From NCBI GenBank assembly GCA_947476675.1, contig CANJRL010000001.1:1-64000 (forward strand): 64,000 nt of DNA. Reading direction: 5' to 3'. The notes under the pieces are model-generated. The model saw nothing but the letters and a program-made list of their open reading frames with translations. It was not told the origin of the DNA and searched no databases. Positions 35,592 through 45,419 of this stretch are shown here, one piece after another. Made by a program: the position numbers and the translations under genes. Every line of letters starts with the position of its first letter. The stretch's first letter is position 1. The stretch comes from Phycisphaerales bacterium. GTDB taxonomy: Bacteria; Planctomycetota; Phycisphaerae; Phycisphaerales; UBA1924.

Positions 35592-37169
35592 ATGGAGCGG
35601 GGCGTCGGGCACATGTCGGCCGAGGAGTTCCGCGAGGTTGGTCGGCGGGTGATCGACTGGGTTGCGGACTGGATGGAGCGGAGCCGCGAAGGCCGGGCGG
35701 GGCCGGTGCTGTCGCGGGTGAAGCCGGGGGAGATCGCGGCGATGCTTCCGGAGCGGGGGCCGGAGCGGGGCGAGGGGTGGGATGCGCTGCTGGCGGACCT
35801 GGAGCGCGTGGTTGCGCCGGGGGTGACGAACTGGCAGAGCCCGCAGTTCTACGGCTACTTCCCCTGCAACGCGACGGGCCCGGCGATCCTGGCGGAGATC
35901 GTGAGCGCGGGGCTCAACGGGCAGGGGATGCTGTGGTCGACCTCGCCGGCGTACACGGAGATCGAGACGAGGGCGATGGACTGGCTGGGGGAGTTGATCG
36001 GGCTGCCGGGGAAGTTCGCGTCGTCGACGGGCGTGGGCGCGGGGGTGATCCAGGGGACGGCGAGCGAGGCGGCGCTGGTGTGCATCGTGGCGGCGCGGGA
36101 GCGGGCGATGCGTGTGGGGGTTGCGTCCCCTCACCCGGCGGCTGCGCCGCCACCCTCTCCCGAGAGGGGAGAGGGGGCAGGAGCCCCTCACCCTTCCCTC
36201 TCCCGTGGGGAGAGGGGTGGGAGAGAGCAAGGCGAAGGAGGAGGCCGGCTCCGGCTGGAAGAGATGACGGCGTACTGCTCCTCGCAGGCGCATTCGTCGA
36301 TCGCGAAGGATTGCCGCATCGCGGGGCTCCCCCGGGAGAACCTGCGGCTCGTGGAGGTGGATGATCGGCTGCGGATGCGGGCCGATGCGCTGTCGCGTCG
36401 GGTGGCGGAGGATCGGGCGGCGGGGCTGATGCCGTTCTTCGTGTGCGCGACGGTGGGGACGACGTCGTCGGGGGCGGTGGACCCGGTGGCGGAGGTCGGC
36501 GCGGTGGCGCGGCGGGAGGGGATGTGGCTGCACGTGGACGCGGCGTGGGCGGGTGCGGCGTGCGTGTGCCCGGAGCATCGGGGTTTGCTCTCGGGGGTGG
36601 ACTTGGCGGACTCGTTCAACTTCAACCCCCACAAGTGGCTGCTGACGAACTTTGACTGTTCGGCGCTGTGGGTGGCGGACAGGCGGGACCTGATCGATGC
36701 GCTGTCGATCACGCCGGAGTATCTGCGGAACGCGGCGAGCGAGAGCGGCGCGGTGATCGACTACCGGGACTGGCAGGCGCCCCTGGGCCGGAGGTTCCGG
36801 GCGCTCAAGTTGTGGTGGGTGATGCGGCGCTACGGCGCGGACGGGCTGCGGGCGCACATCCGGGCGCACGTGCGGTGCGGGGAGGTGTTCGAGTCGCTGG
36901 TCCGCGGGGATGAGCGGTTCGAGATGGGGGCTGAGCGGAGCCTGAGCCTGGTGTGCTTTCGGCTGCGCGCGGGGGACGAGGCGACCAGGCGGCTGCACGA
37001 GCGGCTGAACGCGTCGGGCCGGATGTTCCTCTCGCACACGGTGCTTCCCTCGGCGGGGGGCGGCCCGGGGCGGTACACGCTGCGGATGGCGATCGGCGGG
37101 GTGTGGACGGCGGAGGAGCACGTGCGTGCGGCGTGGGGATGGATCGCGGAGGAGGCCGGGCGCGCATGA
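35592..37169 (+). CDS. Group II PLP-dependent (aromatic amino acid type) decarboxylase with an in-frame repeat insertion
   Basis: A 525-residue fold-type I PLP enzyme of the DDC/TDC family. Family landmarks include NWQSPQFYGYFPCNATGPAI near the start, GVIQGTASEAALV, the pre-lysine LHVDAAWAGAA with its PLP-binding Asp, and the PLP lysine K348 in FNFNPHKWLLTNFD. The SSQAHSSIAKDC substrate loop is present. Between residues about 175 and 225, a surface region that is short in homologues, the sequence becomes SPHPAAAPPPSPERGEG and similar: the translation of a palindromic repeat (36127-36225). The rest is intact, so the enzyme may still work. The substrate (Tyr, Trp, Phe, DOPA or Asp-like) is undetermined. 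The start is ATG 35592, after GGGAGGG. Confidence 0.85.
   Translation: MERGVGHMSAEEFREVGRRVIDWVADWMERSREGRAGPVLSRVKPGEIAAMLPERGPERGEGWDALLADLERVVAPGVTNWQSPQFYGYFPCNATGPAILAEIVSAGLNGQGMLWSTSPAYTEIETRAMDWLGELIGLPGKFASSTGVGAGVIQGTASEAALVCIVAARERAMRVGVASPHPAAAPPPSPERGEGAGAPHPSLSRGERGGREQGEGGGRLRLEEMTAYCSSQAHSSIAKDCRIAGLPRENLRLVEVDDRLRMRADALSRRVAEDRAAGLMPFFVCATVGTTSSGAVDPVAEVGAVARREGMWLHVDAAWAGAACVCPEHRGLLSGVDLADSFNFNPHKWLLTNFDCSALWVADRRDLIDALSITPEYLRNAASESGAVIDYRDWQAPLGRRFRALKLWWVMRRYGADGLRAHIRAHVRCGEVFESLVRGDERFEMGAERSLSLVCFRLRAGDEATRRLHERLNASGRMFLSHTVLPSAGGGPGRYTLRMAIGGVWTAEEHVRAAWGWIAEEAGRA
36127..36225 (+). repeat. Palindromic repeats embedded in the decarboxylase reading frame (copy B and a partial second unit)
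   Basis: 36127-36176 is a full unit: GGCGGC-tgc-GCCGCC, then CCCTCTCCC-gaga-GGGGAGAGGG. 36184-36225 is a second unit that keeps only the CCCTCTCCC-GGGAGAGGGG hairpin. The first aligns over 47 nt with the copies at 1771-1820 and 43246-43294. Together they add about 35 residues (179-212) of Pro/Ala/Glu/Arg/Gly sequence without breaking the frame. Confidence 0.8.
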
Positions 37170-42434: not shown

Positions 42435-43118
42435 CTAGTCCATCGGTTGTCGGCCGGCGATGGCGTCGGCGAGGACGGCCTTGGAGGCGTATTCGAGTTG
42501 GCCACCGGTGGGGAGGCCTCGGGCGAGGCGGGTGACGCGGAGGTTGCGGGCGTGGAGGAGTTCGGCGAGGTGGAGGGCGGTGCCGTCGCCTTCGAGATTG
42601 GGGTTGAGGCCGAGGATGACTTCCTTCACCGGTTGCGCGCCGGAGTTGCGTGATGGGTTGTCGGCGCGGGCGAGGAGCGGGGCGATGGTGAGGTCGTCCT
42701 CGTCGATGCCTTCGAGAGGGCTGAGGCGGCCGAGGAGGACGTGGTAGACGCCGCGGTGCATGGCGGTCTGCTCGAGGGCGAGGAGGTCTTTGGGTTGTTC
42801 GACGACGAGGACGAGGGAGCGGTCGCGGCGGGGGTCGGCGCAGATGGAGCAGGGGTCGGCTTCGGTGAGGTTGAAGCAGATGGAGCAGTGACGGATGGAG
42901 CGCTTGACGCCGGCGATGGCGTCGGCGAGGGCGGCGGCGTCATCGCTTGGGGACTTGAGGACCCAGAAGGCGAGGCGCTCGGCGGAGCGGCGGCCGATGC
43001 CGGGGAGGCGGGCGAACTGGGTGATGAGGCGCTCGACGGAGTCGGGGTACGGCGAGCGCGCGGGGCGGTCGGCGGGCGCCCTGCCTGCTGCGCGGCCGTT
43101 GCTGGGGCCGGCGGTCAT
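42435..43118 (-). CDS. recR: Recombination protein RecR
   Basis: A 227-residue RecR. It has the helix-hairpin-helix start (LITQFARLPGIGRRSAERLAF), the C4 zinc finger (CSICFNLTEADPCSIC) and the Toprim domain (LVVEQPKDLLALEQ; LGLNPNLEGDGTAL), ending with the GGQLEYASKAVLADAI segment. RecR works with RecO/RecF in loading RecA at gaps. A 35-residue Ala/Arg/Pro N-terminal extension precedes the usual start; ATG 43118 is supported by TACGAT 6 nt upstream. It is the last gene of the ffs-dnaX-ybaB-recR cluster but appears to have its own promoter. Confidence 0.92.
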   Translation of the reverse strand: MTAGPSNGRAAGRAPADRPARSPYPDSVERLITQFARLPGIGRRSAERLAFWVLKSPSDDAAALADAIAGVKRSIRHCSICFNLTEADPCSICADPRRDRSLVLVVEQPKDLLALEQTAMHRGVYHVLLGRLSPLEGIDEDDLTIAPLLARADNPSRNSGAQPVKEVILGLNPNLEGDGTALHLAELLHARNLRVTRLARGLPTGGQLEYASKAVLADAIAGRQPMD

Positions 43119-43245: not shown

Positions 43246-43294
43246 CCCCTCACCCGGCGGCGGCGCCGCCACCCTCTCCCGCGAGGGGAGAGGG
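43246..43294 (+). repeat. Palindromic repeat between ybaB and recR (copy C)
   Basis: A full unit of the same double hairpin found inside ccsA and the decarboxylase: GGCGGC-ggc-GCCGCC, then CCCTCTCCC-gcga-GGGGAGAGGG. It ends 7 bp before the ybaB stop codon, in the 183-bp gap before recR, where its RNA hairpins could influence read-through. Confidence 0.8.
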
Positions 43295-43301
43295 AGAAAT
43301 C

Positions 43302-43673
43302 TCAGCGGCCGAGGAAGCCGGAGAGTGCGCTGAGGGCGGGGAGGTCGGGCAGGCCGTTGGCTTTGGCCTCTTCGAGGGCGGCGTCCTTGGCGAGGAGTTC
43401 GGCCTTGGCGAGGGCGTCGTTGATTGCGTCGGCGATCATCTTCTGGGTGAGGGCGCGGTCGGCGGGAGAGGCGAGGGCGGCGCGGGCCCCGAGGTCGATG
43501 GAGACCACGCGCATGCGGCCGGTGACGACGGCGGTGACGGCGCCTCCCTGGGCCGAGCCGGCGGCGCGGACCTGCTCGAGGCGGGCCTGGATGCGCTCGC
43601 CCATCTTCTGGAGTTTGTCGCGGTCTTTGAGGAGGCCGGCGAGAGCGCCGACGGCCGTGAGTTGATCGAGCAT
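43302..43673 (-). CDS. YbaB/EbfC nucleoid-associated protein
   Basis: A 123-residue protein of the YbaB/EbfC family: a helix (LAGLLKDRDKLQKMGERIQARLEQV), a beta strand pair (GGAVTAVVTGRMRVVSIDL) and a C-terminal helical tail (DAINDALAKAELLAKDAALEEA). It forms DNA-binding dimers and is encoded between dnaX and recR in many bacteria, as here. The gap to dnaX is 7 bp. The C-terminal end (LPDLPALSALSGFLGR) follows the family pattern of a flexible tail. Confidence 0.87.
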   Translation of the reverse strand: MLDQLTAVGALAGLLKDRDKLQKMGERIQARLEQVRAAGSAQGGAVTAVVTGRMRVVSIDLGARAALASPADRALTQKMIADAINDALAKAELLAKDAALEEAKANGLPDLPALSALSGFLGR

Positions 43674-45293: not shown

Positions 45294-45419
45294 GCCCCGG
45301 CGGTCGGCGACCAGGACACCGGCGGCACCGGATGACGGCCGCTTATGGCTGCTGCGGTCAGGCCCTGACCAGGTTCACGGGCCACCCGTGCACCGGGCCC
45401 GGCCGCCGACCGCCGGGGG
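45294..45419 (-). ncRNA. ffs: Bacterial small SRP RNA (4.5S type)
   Basis: The minus strand has the conserved SRP RNA core: GGTCAGGGCCTGACCGCAGC, followed by AGCCATAAG, the tetraloop/asymmetric-loop region bound by Ffh. The two ends pair perfectly over 15 bp (CCCCGGCGGTCGGCG at 45418-45404 with CGCCGACCGCCGGGG at 45309-45295), giving a rod-like hairpin of about 125 nt. It lies directly upstream of dnaX, as the scr RNA does in Bacillus. End positions are estimated from the pairing and could be off by a few bases. Confidence 0.88.

Follow-up and report, generated by a model that had tools for sequence, protein, structure and literature searches.

The window analysed here is a stretch of 64,000 nucleotides from a Phycisphaerales bacterium (contig CANJRL010000001.1, positions 1 to 64,000). 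It contains a gene for a PLP-dependent aromatic amino acid decarboxylase in which, as the original prediction had it, a palindromic repeat is inserted with the reading frame kept open (Table 1). That prediction had described a repeat unit followed by a partial second unit: the first stands, but the second proved to be a complete 32-nt unit representing a second, shorter subfamily. The A unit is composed of a third arm CCCTCACCC, a hairpin GGCGGC-TGC-GCCGCC (hairpin 2) and a hairpin CCCTCTCCC-n5-GGGAGAGGG (hairpin 1). The B unit, CCCTCACCC-TT-CCCTCTCCC-GTG-GGGAGAGGG, is without the middle hairpin. Folded as DNA, the A unit reaches -18.3 kcal/mol (z -3.8 versus shuffled sequences) and the B unit -9.6 kcal/mol (z -2.2).

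Table 1 Features in the window, other genes carrying in-frame copies, and further loci discussed in the text
Feature	Position	Strand	Remarks
PLP-dependent aromatic amino acid decarboxylase, 525 aa	35592-37169	+	Frame open across both units
A-type unit, 48 nt	36128-36175	+	Sequence, copy family, fold
A unit, third arm	36128-36136	+	
A unit, hairpin 2	36137-36151	+	
A unit, hairpin 1	36153-36175	+	
B-type unit, 32 nt	36185-36216	+	Complete
B unit, third arm	36185-36193	+	
B unit, hairpin	36196-36216	+	
Predicted gene	42438-43118	-	
Second A-type unit of the window	43247-43294	+	Intergenic; 96% identical to the first
Predicted gene	43305-43673	-	
Small bacterial SRP RNA	45306-45404	-	Rfam RF00169, 56.8 bits
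In-gene copy, isoleucyl-tRNA synthetase (IleRS)			
In-gene copy, OMP decarboxylase (PyrF)			
In-gene copy, acyl-CoA carboxyltransferase			Methylcrotonyl-CoA carboxylase-like
In-gene copy, dihydrouridine synthase (Dus)			
In-gene copy, E2 acyltransferase			In linker
In-gene copy, radical SAM protein			N-terminal part
In-gene copy, alpha/beta hydrolase			C-terminal end
In-gene copy, HMG-CoA lyase			
HMG-CoA lyase and methylcrotonyl-CoA carboxylase-like subunit, neighbouring genes	L023:3408-4895 and L023:4918-6540 (contig C25)	-	Both with in-frame palindromes
DUF559 in one frame with Eco57I-type N6 DNA methylase, 942 aa	L142:1-2826	-	Palindromes on both sides

The decarboxylase is a Pyridoxal_deC protein (Pfam PF00282, E = 2e-115) that matches tyrosine decarboxylase 6eei at E = 6.5e-140. 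Its PLP lysine K348 (motif NPHKW) and H234 are invariant in 28 aligned sequences, in agreement with the prediction that the lysine is intact. The linker that houses the repeats is 52 residues long, against 6-26 residues in 27 repeat-free orthologues from the same family and order, and alignment with tyrosine decarboxylase places the extra residues between residues 174 and 177 of the 6eei chain. In a structural model computed with the segment in place the fold is intact (mean pLDDT 87), and residues 180-211 and 213-216, between helix 157-178 and strand 225-230, are predicted to be disordered (pLDDT below 50). Around the insert, the search for a target-site duplication returned only 4-5 nt matches, none convincing. 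The insert would accordingly be a passenger that the enzyme tolerates, with catalysis hardly affected.

Copies were then counted in the whole genome (2.72 Mb in 174 contigs), inside and outside genes, as the original prediction had proposed. The perfect stem pattern occurs 34 times against once for a reversed-pattern control; the repeat is therefore not a product of chance. A looser pattern, searched in the loci around copies, yields at least 57 units, mostly intergenic, among them the second A-type unit of the window, which sits between two predicted genes (Table 1). Pairing in hairpin 2 of the A units is kept through compensatory changes, and Rfam holds no family for the unit. Genes around the copies were called with a codon model seeded on homology-supported genes. 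By that model 85% of the sequence is coding and most copies are intergenic, which means that copies are strongly depleted in genes. Nonetheless, by Pfam identities, the decarboxylase and about eight other genes contain one (Table 1), so that the repeat occurs, as anticipated, in coding as well as intergenic DNA. In IleRS, PyrF and the carboxyltransferase the segment is absent from the aligned solved homologues. We also considered whether the repeat is built to be open in all frames. This was rejected: its overall open-frame fraction is no better than that of shuffled sequences (0.82 versus 0.82), with 168/171 sense and 112/171 antisense frames open. At loci L033, L098 and L103 (contigs C138, C16 and C63) units are grouped into composite clusters that contain another variant, CCCTCACCTGTCATCGCTCCGCGATGACATCCTCTCCCGGAGGGAGAGG, and have the tail GGCATCGATCGCG or GGCATCGACCGCG in common; these are possibly a larger non-autonomous element.

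Since one in-gene copy adjoined a DUF559 domain, DUF559 loci were examined. This link, absent from the original prediction, is in our judgement the more important result. The genome of the window has three DUF559 matches, and both of the full domains are bracketed by the repeat, one (contig C25) with B-type and the other (contig C57) with A-type ends, i.e. the same two subfamilies as the bare copies. The full element spans about 0.45 kb and reads hairpin-third arm-DUF559-third arm-hairpin, its ends being inverted. Across the order, a CCCTCTCCC-type copy lies near 24 of 30 DUF559 loci, on both sides in 23, and near none of 29 decarboxylase loci (112 kb) used as control. Most loci of the order have inverted ends with the third arm toward the gene (exceptions: L141, L158, L162, L163 and L171), and at L153 the ends form a near-perfect inverted repeat of about 38 nt.

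A sequence-blind test was also applied, in which the left flank is compared with the reverse complement of the right flank and displaced flanks serve as controls. In the order, 46 of 47 loci exceed all 162 displaced controls; these 47 exclude L182 and loci whose flanks are masked by runs of N. L182 (genome G064, contig C3) has a long, near-perfect inverted duplication around its DUF559 gene; this could be a genuine large palindrome or have arisen in assembly. A further 78 named loci come from Planctomycetota, Sphingomonadales, Caulobacterales, Chloroflexota, Cyanobacteria and others; of these, 55 score above all controls and 23 do not rise above the highest one (Mann-Whitney p = 3e-31). In alphaproteobacteria the ends are written in other letters and follow the same plan of hairpin, second hairpin and purine third arm. 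Palindromes and DUF559 genes are thus associated.

The DUF559 proteins are relatives of the endonuclease-like protein 3hrl. In 41 sequences E26, E66, H72 and D79 are invariant and D55 and D68 nearly so; these match the conserved acidic and histidine residues of the fold, and from sequence the proteins are predicted to be Vsr-like PD-(D/E)XK nucleases. Phage records contain almost no DUF559 of this type. In one 942-aa frame (L142, Table 1), DUF559 with palindromes on both sides is joined to an Eco57I-type N6 DNA methylase; the element may have been inserted here into a restriction-modification enzyme with the frame preserved.

A site in the HMG-CoA lyase gene was found in four states among related genomes. 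In nine genomes the whole palindrome-DUF559-palindrome series shares a single open frame with the lyase and always sits between ...WVPQLGD... and ...SALVPN...; in further genomes the site holds a solo palindrome (two genomes), a vestige or likely vestige (three genomes) or reads empty (the rest). A single clade of filled genes is rejected (p-AU 1e-14), and most solo or vestige genes stand beside filled ones. DUF559 domains from this site mostly cluster together, those of the window's genome and of G064 being placed elsewhere with weak support (p-AU 0.05). In a model of the lyase-DUF559 protein both domains are folded, the lyase part matching solved HMG-CoA lyases, and the stretches encoded by the palindromes are predicted to be disordered. 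A Pfam search of five lyase fusions returned no Hint splicing domain, only HMGL-like, DUF559 and DUF559-related nuclease families. This series of empty, full, solo and vestigial sites illustrates how a mobile palindrome can add segments to conserved enzymes. On contig C25 the lyase gene, with its DUF559 domain, neighbours the gene for a methylcrotonyl-CoA carboxylase-like subunit; both have in-frame palindromes, and the pair looks like leucine breakdown.

We next compared bare copies with DUF559 elements across genomes. In seven genomes bare copies are closer to the DUF559 ends of their own genome than to those of others (permutation p = 4e-4). Over 36 genomes the repeat and DUF559 co-occur (both in 9, repeat only in 3, DUF559 only in 4, neither in 20; Fisher p = 0.001); the repeat stands without DUF559 in G014, G043 and G047, and DUF559 without the repeat in G002, G007, G039 and G045, G002 having another end dialect. 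Twelve DUF559-bearing genomes, most from other groups, contain 3-195 stems each against at most 1 in the control, a range that is not an unbiased rate because the genomes were picked for their known DUF559 loci. In the Sphingomonas genomes searched, the dialect proper to them reaches about 88 copies (control zero). These copies form at least 25 inverted pairs; among the matches listed their median spacing is 108 bp and every pair turns the third arm inward. Other pairs measure about 430 bp, the size of a DUF559 element, and one of these encloses a DUF559 gene by coordinates (L261). DUF559 copies inside one genome are diverged, which indicates that the gene itself rarely multiplies.

The association extends to E. 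coli K-12, whose ycjD is a DUF559 gene (PF04480, E = 1e-49). The distance between the ycjD 3' end and no. 9 of the triplex-motif (TM) repeats listed by Holder et al. is about 170 bp; by simple arithmetic (about 18 TM sites in 4.6 Mb) the chance expectation of such proximity is about 0.003. A degenerate unit abuts ycjD and is oriented like the ends of the planctomycete elements; no such unit was seen beyond the opposite end of the gene. Most of the ycjD locus is present in 3334 of 5426 genomes, and in three others that were opened the eef operon is in its place (PMC12817139). With this efflux operon in place, the opened strains without ycjD are not clean empty sites. In the fabI-ycjD-sapF region of different strains (L309, L314 and L315) the number of TM-like units beside ycjD varies, and the ycjD 3' end is duplicated or recombined with them. 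The E. coli control of our profile search gave no DUF559 match, although YcjD of K-12 matches PF04480; perhaps the control strain is without ycjD, or the match was overlooked at first look.

We consider it likely that the repeats derive from a minimal element driven by DUF559, whether as its ends, as its solo remains or as its non-autonomous copies, and that this element is comparable to RAYT/REP with an unrelated enzyme. It would be a small mobile element with the DUF559 nuclease as its sole gene, the A and B units representing two subfamilies of ends. The DUF559 protein may recognise the folded end (hairpin, perhaps triplex) and nick or cut DNA, after which the break would be filled by host repair with a copy of the unit. 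We do not propose transposase chemistry, and Vsr-type PD-(D/E)XK nucleases are not known to be transposases. Copies landing in genes would survive only where they preserve the frame and encode a disordered linker rich in Pro, Gly, Arg and Glu in a surface loop. Our sequence comparisons caught no live movement of the element, and mobilisation of the repeats by DUF559 is what the bracketing, the matching dialects and the co-occurrence suggest. Points that weigh against it are the target-site search without a convincing duplication, the genomes that have the repeat or DUF559 alone, the 23 named loci that stay within the control range, the divergence of DUF559 copies within a genome and the role in mismatch repair proposed for Caulobacter VsrA.

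Several other explanations were weighed. The segment in the decarboxylase could be an old, naturally long protein loop, GC-rich and palindromic by accident, and loop length at the site does vary from one orthologue to another (6-26 residues). The segment is, however, in no orthologue found, distant orthologues that all carry it, the outcome named beforehand as contrary, did not appear, and the same DNA unit recurs at dozens of unrelated places; repeat-free orthologues and genomic copies together rule this reading out, and we give it next to no probability. That a RAYT-type Y1 transposase moves the palindromes, as it does for GTAG REPs, with DUF559 a bystander, is suggested by the single Y1_Tnp gene of the genome. 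No repeat copy lies within 1.5 kb of that gene, the units are without an unpaired GTAG tag, and the bracketed gene is DUF559, not Y1, in order after order. RAYT was rejected as mobiliser on the ground that units do not flank the Y1_Tnp gene, and this scenario is very improbable. DUF559 might instead be a repair or regulatory nuclease whose adjoining palindromes are control sites (terminators, LexA-like sites, autoregulation) copied by slippage and recombination. Hairpins can serve as terminators, and a study of Caulobacter VsrA links that protein to mismatch repair and SOS (PMC12907096). Neither the inverted units that bracket the gene on either side, their third arms pointing inward, nor in-frame blocks in HMG-CoA lyase, nor dozens to hundreds of dispersed copies fit such a role, which we regard as quite improbable. 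A VsrA-type role in mismatch repair and a mobilising role may coexist.

Among the alternatives, homing is the least improbable. DUF559 would here be a homing-type nuclease targeting pre-existing inverted pairs of palindromes, which spread by another route. Vsr-fold homing endonucleases exist, the element entered the HMG-CoA lyase site several times or was lost from it again and again, as happens with homing, and gene-less inverted pairs are common in Sphingomonas. Against this, bare copies share the dialect of the DUF559 ends in their own genome, and in the genome of the window two subfamilies go with two genes; a gene that invaded late would have no need to display such a match. No gene other than DUF559 turned up at the repeats, and the Y1 transposase gene of this genome has no copy nearby. 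We hold homing to be unlikely.

The repeat-bracketed DUF559 gene, as a DUF559-driven element, is probably the sign of a minimal type of mobile DNA that has so far gone unrecognised. In its widest form we lean towards the view that DUF559/Vsr-like nucleases define a new class of mobile element of about 0.45 kb with palindromic third-arm ends, present in Planctomycetota, Pseudomonadota, Chloroflexota and Cyanobacteria, that they are the missing mobiliser of TM-type repeats including TM-ECO of E. coli, and that the element can live in frame, unspliced, in enzymes of which HMG-CoA lyase is an example. Proof that DUF559 moves the repeats would make the element a class of its own; with a candidate enzyme in E. 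coli K-12 (ycjD), what moves such repeats becomes directly testable.

The nearest known repeats are the TM repeats, which are wide over bacteria and were described without a mobility gene (Holder et al. 2015, PMC4666352). The planctomycete repeat belongs to them. It shares with TM-ECO the three 9-nt segments CCCTCACCC / CCCTCTCCC / GGGAGAGGG, the B-unit spacing, the wide spread and, in one E. coli copy, the position next to ycjD. B units have the two pyrimidine arms and one purine arm, mirror-related and about 9 nt long, of the TM motif (Table 1 of PMC4666352), whose triplex form is putative. The A unit differs in having the extra hairpin 2 between its arms. In E. coli, moreover, TM repeats are described as always intergenic (PMC4666352), whereas the planctomycete repeat also enters genes and brackets DUF559.

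RAYT/REP/REPIN systems (REPtrons) are built alike: a single gene stands within inverted palindromes, bare copies are numerous, inverted pairs have a spacing of about 100 bp and some copies lie in frame in genes (PMC3733652 and the accessible part of PMC3116915). Their enzyme is a Y1 HUH transposase, where here we find a predicted PD-(D/E)XK Vsr-like nuclease. Because it is REP-like in every feature seen, we group the DUF559 element with the REP-plus-enzyme kind, although it fails the tests that define RAYT/REP: no Y1 (HUH) transposase gene of the genome is flanked by units, the only Y1_Tnp gene being more than 1.5 kb from any copy, and an unpaired GTAG (or CGTC) end tag is absent from the 57 units inspected. 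For CGTC-type REPs, too, a known transposase is lacking (PMC3733652).

Inteins and homing endonuclease genes, including those of Vsr type, likewise place a nuclease in frame at one site of a conserved enzyme with a patchy distribution. The lyase-DUF559 protein shares these traits but has no splicing domain, its nuclease is predicted to stay in the chain between disordered linkers, and the palindromic ends of DUF559 are also scattered over the genome. The DUF559 protein VsrA of Caulobacter (CCNA_02930) is Vsr-like and a putative mismatch-repair nuclease; the word "palindrome" is absent from its description (PMC12907096). Other Caulobacter DUF559 loci have inverted ends. Among titles and abstracts of papers naming DUF559, none was found to tie it to palindromes, and the openly accessible literature yielded nothing relevant that joins Vsr with REP or MITE.

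Protein-embedded palindromes, finally, are established beyond Rickettsia, the one group named for them in the original prediction: Opitutus terrae, Thauera and others have them as well (Di Nocera et al. 2013, PMC3733652). Like RPE and the in-frame REPs of Opitutus and Thauera, the present repeat lies in frame in conserved proteins that have insert-free orthologues, and also between genes. No DUF559 link is described for those families, which probably also differ from it in sequence. In-frame palindromes are thus a known kind, and what appears to be new is their link to DUF559.
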